Source: Leptolyngbya sp. FACHB-261
Lineage (GTDB): Bacteria > Cyanobacteriota > Cyanobacteriia > FACHB-261
Length of the DNA stretch: 64,000 nucleotides
Direction of reading: 5' to 3'
Assembly: GCF_014696065.1 (NCBI RefSeq)
Contig: NZ_JACJPL010000022.1
Coordinates: 186,001-250,000 of the forward strand
The notes below the pieces were generated by a model. It was not told where the DNA came from, searched no databases, and worked only from the letters and a program-made list of their open reading frames with translations. Shown piece after piece: positions 362 through 8,662 of this stretch; within the stretch, counting starts at the first letter, position 1, and every line of letters starts with the position of its first letter. The translations under genes and the position numbers were made by a program.

Positions 362-3300
362 TTAGGGACTTTGATATTCCTTCTGTAAAACTTCTTTGAC
401 TTTTTCGTACTCAGCCTCAAGCTGAAATATTTTCTCTAAAGTAGTCTCTAAATTTATGAAAACCGTCTCAGAGCGGCTCATCCGTTCTAGCTCTTTGCAG
501 TATTCTGCTAGCAACGCCGCACCTAGAGTCGCGCTGCTAGCCTTAAGGGTATGGGCAGCCTGCTTGAGCCCTGCTGAATCGCGTTGAGTGATGGCAGTAT
601 GCATCCCTTTAATCAGCTCTGGCGCATCCTTGAGATACAGCTTAATCACCCTTGCTAGAACTTCTGAGGCGCCCTGACCCAAAGCCTTCCTTAGCGATTG
701 AATCACCTTAAAGTCAATGCTGACTGGGACCAAAGCCGGTTGCTTTGAGCCTCCAGGTTGAAGCTCAGATTGAGACTCAGGTTTGCCGTGGCTGAGCGAT
801 CGAATTAGAGTCTCTACATGAATGGGCTTAGTAATATAATCATCCATGCCTGCTTCCAGACACATTTCACGGTCGCCATACATGGCATTCGCTGTCATCG
901 CAATGATTCGAGGCTGTTCAGCCTCCGGCCATTGAGCCCGAATACAACGTGTTGCGGTTAGACCGTCCATCTCTGGCATCTGCATATCCATCAGCACAAC
1001 ATCGTATTGCTGCTGTTTGAGCAAAGCTAGAGCTTCTAAGCCATTGCCTGCCACATTAGGCTGGTAGCCTAGGCTGTTCAATAGCAGCAAAGCGACTTTT
1101 TGATTCACTGCATTGTCTTCAACTAGCAAAATCCGTAAAGGATGATGTCGAGAAAGTTCTGAATTGGGTTGAAGTAGGTCAGCTTGAACCGGCAGGGTAG
1201 AAGAAGCTGCTTTGCTTGAAATTTGCCGAAGAACTTTGTAGAGCTGGGAATGTTTGACTGGCTTGGTCAAGAAGGCCGAGAAATTCACCGTCGAATTGGA
1301 CCCTTCAAACCCCGCTCTGCTGAGAGAGGTCAGCATCACCAAGGGCAGCGTCTGGTAGTCTGGTTGCTGGCGGATTTCTACAGCTAGAGTTAGACCATCC
1401 ATTTCAGGCATTTGCAGGTCCAAAATAGCAATATCGAACTTATCTTGACGCAAATAGTCAAGGGCTTCTCTACCTGACGCAGCAGCTTGCGCAATCATCC
1501 CCCAAGCCTGAGTTTGCAAGGTCAAAATCTGACGACTGGTTCTATTATCGTCCACAATCAACAACCGTTTCTCAGACAACTGCGAGGAGGATTGGGCTGC
1601 GTCACTAGGTAATAGCTCCGGCTGAGCCTCAGTGACGATAGTGAAATAAAAGGTGGATCCCACACTATCAGAATCGCTAGAGGGTTGCCAGTCAGGAGGA
1701 GGATTGCCTGCGATCTCAGCCCGGCTTTCGGCCCACATTTGCCCACCCATCATGTCACTTAGCTGTTTGCCAATCGCTAATCCCAAACCAGTTCCACCAT
1801 ACTGCCGGGTGGTCGAGGCATCGGCTTGGCTGAAGGATTTGAATAGGCGCCCCATGCGATCTACAGCGATGCCAATACCAGTATCTTTAACCGCAAATTG
1901 AAACTTGTATTTTACTGCCGAAAGCGTGCAGTCAGCTTCAGAACTCGGACCCGGCATCAGTTCTGCAGACACGGAGAGAATTACTTCCCCCACCTCTGTA
2001 AACTTAATGGCATTGCTAAGCAGGTTTACAAGAATTTGGCGTAGCCGTGTTTCATCCCCGGTGAGTAGGTTAGGAACTTCTAGAGGCACTAAGTAGGCAA
2101 CCTCGATGCCTTTCTCAGCAGCTTTGAGGGCGATTAGATCTAGTGAATGTTCGATACAGTTTCTGAGGTCGAAAGAACGTCGTTCTAGTTCTAGCCTTCC
2201 TGATTCGATTTTTGAGAGATCAAGAATATCATTGATCAAAGCCAACAAAGTGTTGCCACAGTTCTGAACTGTTCCGACAAAATCGCGCTGCCGGGGAGTT
2301 AATTCTGTGTCTAAAAGTAAATCCGTCATACCGATAATGCCGTTGATCGGGGTACGGATTTCATGGCTCATGTTCGCCAGAAATTGACTTTTGACTAAGG
2401 TTGCAGCTTCCGCAACGGCTTTTGCCCGCTCTAGTTCTTGATTTGCTTGAAACAGTTCTTGAGTTCGTTCAACCAGAGCTAACTGCCCGAAATATTGTTC
2501 GGTTACATCGTCCAAGAGCCAAAGGCGACCAGGGACATCGCGAACGCGAGTGGGCGTGCTGGCAATACTCAGCACCTTGGGTTGAGGTTGGCTAAAAATC
2601 CAATTCCAGTTGCGAATCTCTGCCTGAGGTTGTGAAAACAATTCAGCTCCTTGCGCTGCAATCGCTTCACGATTATCTGCATTAGTTCGTAGCTGAGCCA
2701 TCGCTTGAGCCAGCCACAAAGGTTCTACCGCGCCTGGAGGTAGACCTAGTTGTTCTGCAGCTGCTTGATTGAGCCAACCTTGCTCACCACTTTCATCCAC
2801 AAACACCACGCCTTGATGAATCGTTTCGAGCATGGCTTCGAAGCGAACTTGTAGCTTATCTAGGTTTAAAGTTGTGTGATGGAACTGTAACAGCGCGCGT
2901 AACTCGCCCAGCAGTGATTCGATAAACTGCCGTAGGTGTAACGGAATCATCACTTGATGATTCCAGATCAATAAAATCGCACCGGAGGTTGAGCTGCTCA
3001 GTTCTGCACCCGCTAGATGCTGGAGTGGCAAGACAGCAAGAGAGCGAACACCTCTCGCCAATAAAGTACGAGCTGCCGTTGGAGCAGTCTTGTAGTTTTC
3101 GTAGTAAAGGCAGCGATTCTGCGTCAGAGCTTCTGTAAACAGAGCAGGGGTTGTTAGCTGATCAGGAAACGCAGCTGATGGCAGAGAAACCAGAGCTTCA
3201 GCCGTTACCTCATCCAATTGACGTAAAGCGACTGCTACATCGGCACAGGTGAACTTACGCAGTGAGTTCAGCGCATAAGTGATCAGCGTGTCAGGCGTAG

Positions 3301-3688
3301 TTCCTAAGCTGGTGTTGGTCATCCTGGCTAGGACTGACTGGGAGGCCAAACGCCATTCAATATTCAGCAGTGCTTGGCGAGTGTATGGACTAAAGGCCAA
3401 TATGCCAGTCAGTTCAACCCACTGCCGTACTGAGCCACCATTTATCCTGTGGAGTTCAATTCCTAAACTGCCAATGCCAAACAGTAGCAACAGGCCTGAA
3501 ACTGGTGCTGGTAGGAGGACACACAACAACGAAAGTATCAGGGCTAGCAACTCTGCGTTCCAGCCTTCCAGCCAACCTAAGCCAACCAGCAAGAGCACCA
3601 GCCCCAGCAAGGCGGGTCTGAACGTTGGCAGGCGATCAGGCCGAGTAGAAAGCAACCATAGGCGGCAGCGAGCTAAACAGCGAGACAT
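362..3688 (-). CDS. Hybrid sensor histidine kinase (TM-GAF-PAS-HisKA-HATPase-REC-REC-Hpt)
   Basis: This is a 1108-residue multi-step phosphorelay kinase. Two or three hydrophobic segments lie at about residues 25-80, followed by a GAF-like region (about 115-265) and a PAS-like region (about 280-395). The H-box has His442 in MSHEIRTP. The ATPase domain has [17 protein letters not shown] and GGTGLGLAI. Two receivers follow, with acceptors in [10 protein letters not shown] and [10 protein letters not shown], and then a C-terminal Hpt domain with [13 protein letters not shown]. The predicted relay is His to Asp to His(Hpt) to the receiver encoded next at 1-357. The ATG lies 16 bp inside the end of the upstream hydrolase gene, so the two are translationally coupled. 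The ligand is unknown; the coupled RsbQ-like hydrolase may make or sense it. Confidence 0.95.
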
Positions 3689-4473
3689 GTAGCAACTGCT
3701 TGAGTCACAACGTCAGGCGCACTCAGATGAGGTAGGTGACCCTTCGCGTCGATCGGAACGAGTTGACTCTGAGGAATATGGGCGGCGAGGTATTTTCCCA
3801 CCTCATTGGGCACAGCAATGTCATTGCTGGCTTGCAAGATCACTGTTGGAATCTTCAGCCGTGGCAACTCAGCTCGGTGATCCGACTGAAAGATGACTCG
3901 AGCAACGGCTTGGGCAATATCGGGCCGAATCGCAGCAAGCGTATTGGCAAATTCAGTTGCCAATTCTGGTCGCTCGGGGTTTCCCATTGCAATAGGAGCA
4001 AAGCCACTAGCCCAAGCATGATAGTTCGCAGACATTGCCGCATAGAGGCTATCTAGATCTGCTTGTTCAAAGCCACCGATGTAGCCAACATCGTTGAGAT
4101 AGCGAGGAGATGCACTGATGAAAATCAGCAGCTTGAAGTACTGCGGCTCAATCAATGCAGCTAGCAAGCTGACCATGCCACTCACGGAATGCCCAACCAG
4201 TGTGCACTGCCTCAGTTTCAACTCAGCACAGAGGTCTAATAGGTCCTCAGCATAGCTGTACAGACTGCTGTAGCGGCGCGGACTATAGGCCGCAAAATCG
4301 GACTTGCCAGCACCTACATGATCAAACAAAACAATCCGATATCTGTCTTTGAAGGCTGCAACTTGATGTCGCCAAGCCGTTTGATCTGAGCCAAAGCCGT
4401 GAGCAAAGACAATGGTTTGCTCGCCCTGACCTAGAAGCTGTACATTGTTACGTCGCAGGACGGAAGTTGCCAT
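3673..4473 (-). CDS. RsbQ-like alpha/beta hydrolase
   Basis: This is a 266-residue single-domain alpha/beta hydrolase. The catalytic Ser96 is in GHSVSG, with Asp218 (ASNDIAVP) and His246 (KGHLPH); the oxyanion region is AHGFGSD. The triad numbering almost matches Bacillus RsbQ (96/219/247), whose family includes the plant hormone receptors D14 and KAI2. RsbQ works with the PAS phosphatase RsbP in the energy-stress pathway by supplying or sensing a small hydrophobic ligand. Here the gene heads an operon and overlaps a hybrid histidine kinase by 16 bp, so I infer it serves that kinase in the same way. The ATG at 4473 has AAAGGA a few bases upstream. The substrate is not known. Confidence 0.88.
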
Positions 4474-5396: not shown

Positions 5397-5456
5397 GGGG
5401 CCTCGCCAGTAGCTTAAGCCAGGATTCAAATCCTCCTAAGACTGTCCTCTGATACA

Positions 5457-5494
5457 AGAGTCCTCACCACGACTGTGGGGGCTCTTCTGTTTTG
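5457..5494 (+). terminator. Probable Rho-independent terminator of thioredoxin
   Basis: The imperfect stem pairs AGAGTCCTCACCAC with GTGGGGGCTCT around a GACT loop, followed by TCTGTTTTG. It lies about 60 bp after the thioredoxin stop. Confidence 0.6.
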
Positions 5495-5548: not shown

Positions 5549-5565
5549 GTAGATTTTACGTAAAT
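5549..5565. promoter_or_regulatory. Operator-like repeat, copy 1 (TTTACGTAAA palindrome)
   Basis: GTAGATTTTACGTAAAT contains the perfect palindrome TTTACGTAAA. The same 17-mer recurs at 5627-5643. A further TACGTA half-site lies at 5546-5551. Both copies precede the RHH gene at 5686. Confidence 0.6.
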
Positions 5566-5626
5566 GAGTATAAATACGGATGCCTCACTCCAGCGAGGTC
5601 AAGGATACTTTCGTCATGACAGTGCA

Positions 5627-5643
5627 GTAGATTTTACGTAAAT
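5627..5643. promoter_or_regulatory. Operator-like repeat, copy 2 (TTTACGTAAA palindrome)
   Basis: This is an exact second copy of the 17-mer at 5549-5565, 78 bp downstream and 43 bp before the RHH start codon. RHH proteins bind short palindromes as dimers and usually repress themselves, so these are the likely operators of the 5686-5922 product. That assignment is inference. Confidence 0.62.
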
Positions 5644-5685
5644 CTTGCACATATCCCTTTGTAACGCACTTTAAGGACTACCCCC

Positions 5686-5922
5686 ATGACTGCCCAACTT
5701 GCTCATTCGCAGAGAGGCAAGGTTCGCCTCAGTCTCGACGTATCTCCTGAACTCAACGACGTGCTCGAAGAGCTAGCAGCTAGAAGCAATGGGACCAAGA
5801 GTGATGTGCTGCGTAAGGCGATTACCTTGATGAAAGTGGCGACGGACGCTCGGGATAAAGGTCTCAAGGTTGGCATTGTTGATGAGAACCAGCATTTGGT
5901 AACTGAAATTGTTGGTATCTGA
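5686..5922 (+). CDS. Ribbon-helix-helix (CopG-type) DNA-binding protein
   Basis: This 78-residue protein has the RHH pattern: a strand KVRLSLDVSP (about 12-21), then helix ELNDVLEELAARSN, then helix KSDVLRKAITLMKVATDARDKG. The C terminus (VGIVDENQHLVTEIVGI) resembles short tails of cyanobacterial CopG-like proteins. It probably acts as a dimeric repressor. Two identical TACGTA-centred repeats lie just upstream, consistent with autoregulation. It could also be the antitoxin-like member of a module with the two small genes downstream, but no known toxin is adjacent. Confidence 0.8.
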   Translation: MTAQLAHSQRGKVRLSLDVSPELNDVLEELAARSNGTKSDVLRKAITLMKVATDARDKGLKVGIVDENQHLVTEIVGI

Positions 5923-6057
5923 GCCCTGAATTCTTCATCAAATTCTTTAAGGTACGAAGGCTACAACTTCTCACGGTTCTTCCGGTTAACAGTTGTGGAG
6001 TCTAGGAAAGCGTAGGGAGAGCCTAGCTTTGGTCCGGGCTCCAGGCCGGTTGCATCG

Positions 6058-6315
6058 ATGACCCTCAACAATGACTATCCGGAGGTCTTAGACCTCAACG
6101 AAGTGGCCGATAGGTTAAACCTAAAGGTCGAACTGAGAGGGCCGACAGCCAGTTTGGTCCTCATTAGAATTGCAAGTCGGCTCAGGCTTACTCAGGCAGT
6201 CAGGTGGCTGAAGCTTAAAAGGGGCGAGCCGTTGAACTTGGATGAAGAGGCTGACCGCTTGGGCTTCGATGTTGAACTCAATCCCGGAACTCGGACGCCA
6301 ATGGGGCGTCGTTAG
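6058..6315 (+). CDS. Hypothetical protein with a duplicated short motif
   Basis: I recognise no family for this 85-residue protein. It carries two copies of a 16-residue motif, LDLNEVADRLNLKVEL at 11-26 and LNLDEEADRLGFDVEL at 59-74 (10 of 16 identical). A basic, hydrophobic stretch rich in Leu and Arg lies between them. A third copy of the motif occurs near the N terminus of the membrane protein at 6492-6866. That suggests a shared adaptor or docking element. No membrane segment is visible. The ATG is the only sensible start, but its ribosome site is weak (AGG about 13 bases upstream). It lies in a same-strand series behind the RHH gene. Confidence 0.6.
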   Translation: MTLNNDYPEVLDLNEVADRLNLKVELRGPTASLVLIRIASRLRLTQAVRWLKLKRGEPLNLDEEADRLGFDVELNPGTRTPMGRR

Positions 6316-6330
6316 GGTAGACCCAGGCGG

Positions 6331-6364
6331 CCCAGCCTGTAGGCTTGTTTGATTACAGGCTGGG
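6331..6364 (+). terminator. Perfect 11-bp hairpin after the 85-residue gene
   Basis: CCCAGCCTGTA (6331-6341) pairs perfectly with TACAGGCTGGG (6354-6364) across a 12-nt loop. A loosely T-rich stretch follows. It is a likely terminator or attenuator between the 6058 and 6492 genes. Confidence 0.6.
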
Positions 6365-6413
6365 TTGAACTTGATTTAATTTCGGCTTCAACTGGAACTA
6401 CCGAATTGGCACA

Positions 6414-6431
6414 GGCGAACTTCGGTTCGCC
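6414..6431. repeat. Hairpin with cUUCGg tetraloop
   Basis: GGCGAAC, TTCG, GTTCGCC forms a perfect 7-bp stem closed by the ultra-stable C(UUCG)G tetraloop. It sits 60 bp before the start of the 6492 gene, next to another perfect hairpin. Confidence 0.7.
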
Positions 6432-6437
6432 TGCTCT

Positions 6438-6458
6438 GCTAGCCGCACTGCGGCTAGC
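6438..6458. repeat. Perfect 9-bp hairpin
   Basis: GCTAGCCGC (6438-6446) and GCGGCTAGC (6450-6458) are separated by ACT. It is the third hairpin in 130 bp and lies in the leader of the 6492-6866 gene. Confidence 0.7.
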
Positions 6459-6491
6459 TCAAAAGCCCTGAGTCCGTCGCTTCTTCTCATT

Positions 6492-6866
6492 ATGAACCTC
6501 AGTTCTGAACAGTCCAAGCCAGACCTCCAATCGCCCCCGAGCCCACCAGATATCGATCTCAATGAGGTAGCAAGCGCTCAGAATCTAACCGTTGAGATCA
6601 AAAGTGCAGAACACCCATTAGTGATGCAAGCTCGTCTGACCCGAGAAGTTACAGATGCTTGGTTCGGGCGGTTGCGGGAGTTTTTGCTCTTCGTTTCTGT
6701 ACTAAGCGGCGTCGGTGTGATCATTGGCTTCGTGTGCTTGCCTATCCTCAACAACCCTAAGGCCTCTGCTGATGACAAAAAGTGGGCGACATCGACCTTG
6801 ACTCTGATTGTCTCCGGCGGGGTGGGTTATCTAACTGGCAAAAACAGCTCGACCAAAGGCGACTAA
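6492..6866 (+). CDS. Small two-TM membrane protein with N-terminal DLNEVA motif
   Basis: This 124-residue protein starts with a Pro/Ser-rich tail, then the motif IDLNEVASAQNLTVEI at about 21-36, which is shared with the neighbouring 85-residue protein. An amphipathic or juxtamembrane stretch (about 45-62) follows. A first membrane helix lies at about 64-86 (LLFVSVLSGVGVIIGF) and a second at about 99-117 (TLTLIVSGGVGYLTG), joined by NNPKASADDKKW. The overall look is a small inner-membrane hairpin with a cytoplasmic N-terminal docking motif. I cannot name a family. The placement after an RHH gene and a soluble protein with the same motif suggests the three genes act together. Confidence 0.7.
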   Translation: MNLSSEQSKPDLQSPPSPPDIDLNEVASAQNLTVEIKSAEHPLVMQARLTREVTDAWFGRLREFLLFVSVLSGVGVIIGFVCLPILNNPKASADDKKWATSTLTLIVSGGVGYLTGKNSSTKGD

Positions 6867-7259
6867 GAAGGAGATCGAACTCGAGACTCTTGGCTAGTGC
6901 AGTAGCCTATTAACAACTCCAGTCTCGACGTTACTCTTACTGATTGGACCAGCCTGAATCAATTGATCACTGAAGTAGCAACTGACTCAGCAAAACATAC
7001 TTTTGAATCACAATTTTGACCGTGATTCTGCCGCACTTCGGTCACACTTAGGCAGTCGAATGACTTGTCATTTTTGTCTCCACTAACCTACGTATATCTG
7101 CTAACTGTTTCTCCTCAGTTCTTCCGTAAATTTCCCTAGCTGAGAGCCTTACAGACGAGGCTCTCAGCTAGGTTATCAAAGTTTAGGGATGGGAATACTA
7201 CAGATCTAGACCAAGCTGATTCTGCAGTAGTCATATTGCCTGTGGAGCAACCCTACATT
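6867..7259. other. Intergenic, no gene recognised apart from one strong hairpin
   Basis: This stretch between the two-TM protein and the Hpt gene has no convincing reading frame. It contains the 15-bp perfect hairpin at 7135-7172 and presumably the promoter for the Hpt/GGDEF pair. Confidence 0.5.
7135..7172. terminator. Strong 15-bp hairpin
   Basis: CCTAGCTGAGAGCCT (7135-7149) and its exact complement (7158-7172) enclose an 8-nt loop, followed by TTATCAAA. It lacks a true U-tract, so it may be a terminator for the upstream gene or a structured leader of the downstream pair. Confidence 0.65.
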
Positions 7260-7667
7260 ATGATACAGCCAAAAAATTCATCTAATAACTCTAGCAGCGC
7301 GATTGACAGGAAAGAGCTAGAAACTTTTCGACAAATGGCTGACGATGGTAGCAGCGATTTACTGATAGAACTGATTGAGTGCTACCTCGAAGAGACGCCT
7401 AAAATGCTGCAAGCTATTAGGGCTGCCGCAATCAATTCAGATCACATATTATTGAACCGAACAGCTCATTCTTTACGTTCTAGTAGTGGCAGCCTGGGAG
7501 CGATTCAACTCTCGCGACTATGCCAAGAGCTAGAAATTATGACCCACTCGGATAACACAACGGGTATATCCGAAGCTGCGGTGTTTTTAACCATCTGCCA
7601 ACTAGAGACAGAATACGAACGGGTCAAGTTAGCTCTACAGGAAGAATTGCAAGGAGAGCAGCGATGA
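7260..7667 (+). CDS. Hpt (histidine phosphotransfer) protein
   Basis: This 135-residue all-helical Hpt domain has its phospho-acceptor at His70 in NRTAHSLRSSSGSLGA. The C-terminal part (ICQLETEYERVK) is clearly similar to the Hpt end of the hybrid kinase at 362-3688 ([12 protein letters not shown]). It should shuttle phosphate between a hybrid kinase and the receiver encoded next, with which it overlaps by ATGA at 7664-7667. I chose the ATG at 7260; upstream TTG (7236) and GTG (7242) starts in the same frame are possible. No kinase is encoded next to it, so its donor is probably a distant or paralogous kinase. Confidence 0.88.
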   Translation: MIQPKNSSNNSSSAIDRKELETFRQMADDGSSDLLIELIECYLEETPKMLQAIRAAAINSDHILLNRTAHSLRSSSGSLGAIQLSRLCQELEIMTHSDNTTGISEAAVFLTICQLETEYERVKLALQEELQGEQR

Positions 7668-8662
7668 ACGCCTGTCCTCTTTCCAGTAGCTCCCCGTTAG
7701 TGCTTATTGTTGATGATGACAAGTTTATGCGGCTTCAACTGAGACGGGGCCTGGAGCAAGAGGGCTATCGAGTGGTAGAGGCAGTTGATGGTGAGCAATG
7801 CCTGGCTCTCTACTCACAGCTGCAGCCAAATATCGTTTTGCTCGATGCGCTTATGCCAGTCATGGACGGCTTCACCTGCTGTACCCAGCTCCAAACTGTG
7901 AGCGGTAGCGAGCATACCCCCATCTTGATGATTACGGGGCTTGAGGACAAAAAGTCTGTCGATTTGGCCTTCGAGGCCGGGGCTGCTGATTATGTGACTA
8001 AACCCATTCATTGGGCTGTGCTACGCCAGCGGGTCCGACGACTGCTTCGACAATCGCAACTCCACCAGCAGTTGCAGGCGGCGAATCATGAACTACAACG
8101 GATGGTGACTTCAGATGGCTTGACAGGAGTTGCTAATCGTCGCTATTTTGATGAGATTTTGGAGCGAGAGTGGCAGCGCTTAGCAAGAGAACAGCAGCCG
8201 CTGTCACTAGTTTTAGCTGATGTCGATTTTTTTAAAAACTACAACGACACCTACGGACATCAGGCGGGTGATCATTGCTTGAAAGAAGTCGCTAGGGCAA
8301 TTGCACAAGCTGTTAAACGTCCTGCTGATTTAGTAGCTCGCTATGGTGGTGAGGAGTTTGCAATTGTTCTACCTAATACAGAGGCGCAGGGAGCGGTTCA
8401 TGTTGCCGAAGAGATTCGCAAGGCTGTTCAATCCCTGCAGCTTAAACACAAGGCTTCTAAAGTCAATGAGTTTGTAACCCTCAGTTTGGGAGTTACTGGC
8501 TTGCTGCCTCAACCGAATTCTTCCCCTGAGCTGCTAATTCTTGCCGCAGACCAAGGTCTCTATCAAGCTAAAGCAGAGGGTCGCAATCGAACCATTCTCA
8601 GGGCTTCTCCAAGATTGCCTTTAACTCCACTCCCACTGTGGCAAACCCAAATAAATATCTAG
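7664..8662 (+). CDS. Response regulator with diguanylate cyclase domain (REC-GGDEF)
   Basis: The 332-residue protein has a receiver with Asp61 (LLDALMP) and Lys113 (TKP), a helical linker at about 125-150, and a GGDEF domain with the intact active-site loop GGEEF at 228-232. The inhibitory site RxxD is present at 219-222 (RPAD), five residues before it, so product inhibition is expected. The metal-binding DVDFFK is also present. It should make cyclic di-GMP when phosphorylated by the Hpt protein encoded just upstream (4-bp overlap). The receiver is a close paralogue of the one at 1-357, which suggests duplication of a signalling unit. Confidence 0.95.
   Translation: MNACPLSSSSPLVLIVDDDKFMRLQLRRGLEQEGYRVVEAVDGEQCLALYSQLQPNIVLLDALMPVMDGFTCCTQLQTVSGSEHTPILMITGLEDKKSVDLAFEAGAADYVTKPIHWAVLRQRVRRLLRQSQLHQQLQAANHELQRMVTSDGLTGVANRRYFDEILEREWQRLAREQQPLSLVLADVDFFKNYNDTYGHQAGDHCLKEVARAIAQAVKRPADLVARYGGEEFAIVLPNTEAQGAVHVAEEIRKAVQSLQLKHKASKVNEFVTLSLGVTGLLPQPNSSPELLILAADQGLYQAKAEGRNRTILRASPRLPLTPLPLWQTQINI

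Follow-up and report, generated by a model that had tools for sequence, protein, structure and literature searches.

The question raised by this locus is whether three small neighbouring genes, predicted to encode an RHH regulator, a soluble protein and a two-TM protein that share a short motif, form a module of their own, and what such a module could do. The window, i.e. the whole stretch of 64,000 nucleotides that was analysed (G000:C22:186001-250000), belongs to a genome of 6.95 Mb in 36 contigs, the sole member of its family in the compared set. The features of the locus follow a thioredoxin gene in this order:

5456 to 5486, plus strand: terminator-like hairpin 3' of the thioredoxin gene, a 12-pair stem and then a T-rich tail; likely the upstream boundary of the unit
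5549 to 5565, plus strand: operator-like element, copy 1, GTAGATTTTACGTAAAT, with the palindromic core TTTACGTAAA (identical direct repeat; genome-wide count)
5627 to 5643, plus strand: operator-like element, copy 2 (identical direct repeat; genome-wide count)
5686 to 5922, plus strand: putative RHH (CopG-like) DNA-binding protein, 78 aa (Pfam RHH_1 just below the cut-off; identity to paired RHHs; AF2)
6058 to 6315, plus strand: ORF for a soluble 85-aa protein, with the motif in two copies (BLASTP to the membrane protein; weak codon statistics)
6316 to 6491, plus strand: strongly structured spacer with three strong hairpins, separating the soluble ORF from the membrane gene (MFE compared with shuffles)
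6492 to 6866, plus strand: small membrane protein, 124 aa, with N-terminal motif, juxtamembrane helix, TM1, DDKKWA loop and TM2 ending in GYLTGK (homologues; alignment; AF2)
7135 to 7172, plus strand: inverted repeat 3' of the membrane gene, perfect over 15 bp, with a loop of 8 bases and no T-run; the unit may end here

Signalling genes lie on either side. On the minus strand (window 362-4473), the gene of an alpha/beta hydrolase that would resemble RsbQ/KAI2 shares 16 bp with the start of the gene of a hybrid histidine kinase of 1108 aa, an overlap that suggests a hydrolase-sensor pair. Directly 3' of the module (7236-8662), the gene of an Hpt-domain protein overlaps a response-regulator/GGDEF gene, and both probably constitute a separate signalling operon.

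The original prediction described the 17-bp repeats as two identical palindromes preceding the RHH gene. Their identity and position are borne out, both copies lying 5' of this gene in the same orientation and 78 bp apart, but the full-length palindrome is not: palindromy is limited to the 10-bp core and the whole elements are direct repeats. When up to two mismatches are allowed, the sequence is found exactly twice in the entire genome, both times at the RHH promoter, and a regulon of this operator was therefore rejected. Since only these two copies exist, the repeats are best read as the RHH protein's own putative operator rather than as a regulon site. The operator sequence is absent from most homologues of the module.

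The window RHH protein scores just short of the Pfam RHH_1 cut-off (19.3 bits for a cut-off of 20.5), whereas its Burkholderia orthologue is well over it (35.1 bits). The AF2 model of the window protein (mean pLDDT 82) contains both RHH helices (residues 21-33 and 38-57) and a predicted C-terminal beta-hairpin (residues 62-65 and 71-75), built from the conserved tail LGIxDxxxxLxxEIVGI. CopG and other RHH structures are among the fold matches of this model, with target-normalised TM-scores of 0.86 to CopG 1ea4_B and 0.88 to 3ft7_A, no match having E < 0.001. Orthologue and model together uphold the presence of an RHH gene, and the protein encoded at 5686-5922 can be assigned to the RHH (CopG-like) DNA-binding superfamily. 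It shares 49-59% identity with the RHHs of three other pairs (L037, L004, L081), and relatives at 45-47% identity are located 5' of PIN-like genes (L054, L072) and bear an additional C-terminal tail. In this VapBC-like layout, one and the same DNA-binding module is combined with another type of partner, an exchange also known from antitoxin networks. In the RHH tree, the partner types are intermingled among the branches and support is poor.

The shared 16-residue motif had been reported three times, twice in the soluble protein (6088-6135 and 6232-6279) and once in the membrane protein (6552-6599). A six-frame pattern search of the window confirms this count, as LDLNEVADRLNLKVEL, LNLDEEADRLGFDVEL and IDLNEVASAQNLTVEI are all the matches to the strict pattern and none lies outside the locus. 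Copy 1 aligns with the membrane-protein copy at a score of 48 and with copy 2 at a score of 44, neither being equalled in 5000 shuffles; copy 2 by itself does not match the membrane-protein copy, the score of 22 being reached by 396 of the 5000 shuffles. Because the third codon positions are far more diverged than the first two (positions 1, 2 and 3 are identical in 11, 12 and 2 of 16 codons between copy 1 and the membrane protein, and in 9, 14 and 5 between copies 1 and 2), the likeness reflects selection on the peptide and not a recent DNA duplication. In the membrane partner the motif forms the N-terminal cytoplasmic segment, and its conservation in homologues, which had been set as a test, was found in a relaxed form (e.g., LDLDDLARRHRLRLEI, FDLNQLPANWTAEL and IDLGELASAGHRYELVL). 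An interpretation of the motif as an HTH (Rv2175c_wHTH, E 0.007) was rejected, the match being sub-threshold and the motif of the relatives being the N-terminus of membrane proteins.

The second part of the membrane protein agrees with the two-TM architecture first proposed. TM1 is clear (hydropathy 2.66) and TM2, despite a weak hydropathy (0.94), is predicted to be helical and is better conserved among the homologues than any other stretch. The AF2 model (mean pLDDT 66, from 4 sequences only) places helices at residues 23-27, at the motif, 42-87, a long one, and 93-120. In the homologues, the N-terminal segment consists of the sequence [hydrophobic]-[D/N]-L-x-x-[L/I/V] and a subsequent strand of the type LxVE[I/L]; it is followed by an acidic/arginine stretch (ExxExxxARxxRE), TM1, the short DDKKWA loop and TM2 ending in G-Y-x-x-G-K. 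Pfam gives no match to the window protein at E values up to 1, hence no PIN domain, and the protein is predicted to be a membrane hairpin; no family of Pfam, NCBIfam, PADLOC or PHROG covers it, and the fold search with its model gave no useful match. It matches no holin family either, single relatives staying sub-threshold (Phage_holin_3_6, 15.4-18 bits for a cut-off of 28.4), and PADLOC-DB 2.0.0 (anti-phage defence) contains no match for the three locus proteins or ten relatives.

The soluble ORF is similar to the N-terminal part of the membrane protein (BLASTP E=1e-5 over 41 aa), and its status as a gene is ambiguous from codon statistics: its score is 0.006, when the 5th percentile of true frames is 0.092 and wrong frames have a mean of -0.041 (sd 0.074). 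No clear Shine-Dalgarno sequence precedes its start, and no convincing relative was found among 386 cyanobacterial genomes, the ORF being seen in the window genome only. The original prediction had also made the recurrence of the three genes as a set a test, and here it fails, the trio of RHH, soluble and membrane genes occurring only at this locus. Since the soluble gene is found in no other genome, has weak codon statistics and is located in a 569-bp insertion between the RHH and membrane genes, the three-gene set is, on sequence grounds, a local elaboration of a conserved unit of two genes. This insertion also contains the 176-nt spacer (6316-6491), whose MFE of -76.9 kcal/mol (z -5.8) was attained by none of 200 shuffles. 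Its three consecutive strong hairpins could be an attenuator, a processing site or an insertion scar; a genomic repeat is ruled out, there being no second copy in the genome, and the Rfam search gave sub-threshold matches only.

These data invite the view that the window unit is a decaying remnant, in which the soluble ORF and the hairpin spacer would be debris of duplication or insertion and the RHH would merely repress itself. The gap of 569 bp, compared with -1 to +7 bp in most relatives, and the weak codon statistics of the soluble ORF are in agreement with it, and decayed relatives are known (L113 is truncated and L117 frameshifted). On the other hand, the RHH and membrane ORFs are both intact and their codon scores are in the normal range (0.168 and 0.113), and the pattern of the motif copies, alike at codon positions 1 and 2 but not 3, points to selection at the protein level, so that we regard decay of the whole unit as improbable. 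The soluble ORF itself may equally be a relic or an expressed titrator of the RHH.

The profile search across cyanobacteria with a listing of neighbours, as originally suggested, shows that the RHH-membrane pair recurs. With the RHH profile, 22 places were found in 20 of 386 genomes of the phylum; a following gene has a predicted membrane segment in 16 of them (window included), is PIN-like in 3 and neither in 3, counting genes within about 250 bp of the RHH (569 bp in the window) and assigning PIN by reading of the sequence. With the membrane-protein profile, 19 of 390 genomes of the class gave matches, and an RHH gene lies immediately 5' in 10 of the 12 new cyanobacterial loci examined. For comparison, a small TM ORF directly follows a long ORF in the window at a crude base rate of 1/32. 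In most pairs the RHH comes first and the reading frames overlap by 1 bp or are separated by at most 7 bp. Searches run separately for the RHH and its membrane partner hit neighbouring genes in genomes G060 and G322 and, by tblastn, on a Burkholderia glumae plasmid. The pair is also present in Massilia plasmids and in one Burkholderiales and one Sphingomonadaceae genome, the membrane gene of the Burkholderiales MAG being frameshifted. Some RHH relatives are carried by IMG/VR contigs, one of which has the full pair (L081; RHH 59% and membrane protein 36% identical to those of the window), whereas a phage origin was rejected, neither the membrane protein of the window nor the RHH of Burkholderia having a match in 50,697 phage records. 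The two-gene core of an RHH and a two-helix membrane protein is, as judged from these comparisons, a real recurring module of cyanobacteria and Proteobacteria, located on chromosomes or plasmids and, in one case, on a contig from a viral collection. It is patchy, since hardly any membrane-protein matches were obtained in the 369 genomes surveyed from the class of G386. No description of an RHH-membrane pair was found in the literature, and the gene pair is apparently unnamed so far.

An RHH gene with a small membrane protein is plasmid-borne in hosts as distant as Burkholderia, Massilia, Calothrix, Nostoc, Klebsiella, Spartinivicinus and E. coli (IncX1). The partner in Nostocales is single-TM with an N-terminal segment of similar appearance (KDLSQIIA..ENPLVVS); profile comparison did not demonstrate homology of this partner, nor of the E. 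coli IncX1 one, to the two-TM family, and both are treated as positional analogues until shown otherwise. The E. coli analogue (L044, plasmid CP099199) is present in 2 of 5426 complete E. coli genomes. Several plasmid copies adjoin par or rep genes, and this, together with the paired direct repeats next to the RHH gene, would fit a plasmid or chromosome positioning device, the RHH sitting on a centromere-like repeat and being tethered by its membrane partner. However, most cyanobacterial copies are carried by long chromosome-like contigs, the repeats are only two and both in the promoter region, and ParA/MipZ/ParB systems are already present among the plasmid neighbours; we therefore hold a positioning role to be very improbable.

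The relation between the two genes is not symmetrical. RHH genes often stand without a membrane partner, whereas intact motif-bearing membrane genes without an RHH were not seen in the loci examined, as one would expect if the RHH is an antitoxin and the membrane protein its toxin. Where membrane proteins lack an RHH, the motif is missing (L010, L112) or the gene is frameshifted (L117). Exceptions are L003, with a weak motif, and L113, which retains the RHH with just a TM2 peptide, so that the joint occurrence of motif and RHH partner tends to be the rule in this small sample. At L113 (G861:C115), the membrane partner is reduced to a peptide of about 45 aa after the RHH, in which only the DDKKWA loop and TM2 are left.

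In L063 (Nostocales genome G101:C12, RHH match 134314-134532), the RHH, its tail and a single-TM partner form one ORF of 152-157 aa, the usual stop and start between them being missing. This fusion suggests that the RHH and the membrane protein act together. It would be permanently neutralised as a toxin-antitoxin pair, and thus fits better a membrane-tethered regulator, the two-protein counterpart of one-component membrane regulators, in which a non-toxic membrane protein anchors the RHH and the state of the membrane sets the amount of RHH that reaches the DNA. In several genera of Nostocales, dN/dS is mostly 0.1-0.35 in both genes, a steady purifying selection unlike that of a purely selfish pair, and the juxtamembrane segment and TM are strongly conserved. 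Taken together with the fusion, this selection keeps a non-toxic tethered regulator in play, and longer proteins with a C-terminal RHH domain (L068, L110, L114) are in agreement with it. In contrast, the operator copies lie at the RHH's own promoter only, with no regulon visible, the genes are carried on plasmids of distant hosts, and the lopsided occurrence of orphan RHH and orphan membrane genes is not what tethering would lead one to expect. Tethering is thus unlikely in our judgement, but it deserves serious weight.

To the proposal that the core pair is a two-gene toxin-antitoxin-like module, in which an autoregulated RHH would restrain a small membrane effector via an N-terminal dock, we give an even chance, and the wording "toxin-like or effector-adaptor" used originally is the best reading of the pair. 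In such a module, (i) the RHH would dimerise, bind the two operator repeats and repress its own promoter; (ii) the membrane protein, made together with the RHH, would be kept inactive by the docking of the RHH's C-terminal hairpin on its N-terminal motif, a short helix and a strand; and (iii) loss of the RHH would release the membrane-acting effector, whose two-helix hairpin could disturb the inner membrane once free. Small, adjacent and coupled genes, a feature of type II systems, are found in most relatives, but the coupling known from them is lost in the window because of the 569-bp gap. In favour of the toxin-antitoxin-like reading are the recurrence of the pair in separate searches, the confinement of the repeats to this promoter, the PIN-linked relatives, the plasmid copies in distant hosts, the asymmetry of orphan genes and the Panacea precedent described below. 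Against it are the fusion and the purifying selection in Nostocales, the operator sequence that most homologues do not share, and the Nostocales and IncX1 partners, for which profile comparison did not demonstrate homology to the two-TM family. In the window genome, the soluble copy of the docking segment, if expressed, could compete for the RHH and so tune effector release or promoter opening. A bolder version, that of an unnamed class of membrane-acting toxin-antitoxin in which the RHH hairpin tail clamps the N-terminal motif of the effector and the soluble double-motif protein is a built-in competitor (anti-antitoxin) setting the release threshold, seems to us quite doubtful.

The usual partners of RHH antitoxins are cytoplasmic enzymes. 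If the toxin-antitoxin-like reading is true, the antitoxin repertoire would be extended to the direct control of membrane effectors, often plasmid-borne, in cyanobacteria and Proteobacteria, and the lineage-specific soluble double-motif protein would show, as an experiment of nature, how such a dock can be titrated. The E. coli IncX1 plasmid would offer a convenient laboratory model of the pair-like arrangement, as a positional analogue. A survey of type II systems in 2009 mentioned candidate pairs with a membrane protein as the putative toxin and left them uninvestigated (PMC2701414); for these candidates, the present family would be a concrete and easily tested one.

Among known systems, VapBC with an RHH antitoxin has a closely related RHH domain and tail, an RHH gene in first position and a small two-gene unit, and members of the window RHH's own family (L054, L072) precede PIN-like genes. 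It differs by its partner, a PIN nuclease instead of a membrane hairpin, and the window RHH is devoid of the extra C-terminal tail of the PIN-linked relatives. The CopG/Arc-type autorepressors share the RHH fold and operator-like repeats at their own promoter, whereas a conserved hairpin tail at the C-terminus and the recurrent membrane partner set the window RHH apart. The NetFlax/Panacea and RosmerTA membrane toxins (PMC10440598) are likewise two-gene pairs with a small membrane effector. For a Panacea antitoxin, a contact with the N-terminal region of the membrane toxin and the short helix before its TM has been predicted, and interface mutants support it (PMC10440598). Their antitoxins carry Panacea or another domain and not this RHH, and PADLOC has no match to the membrane protein of the window; the predicted contact, an N-terminal segment and a short helix before the TM, is comparable to the dock proposed here.
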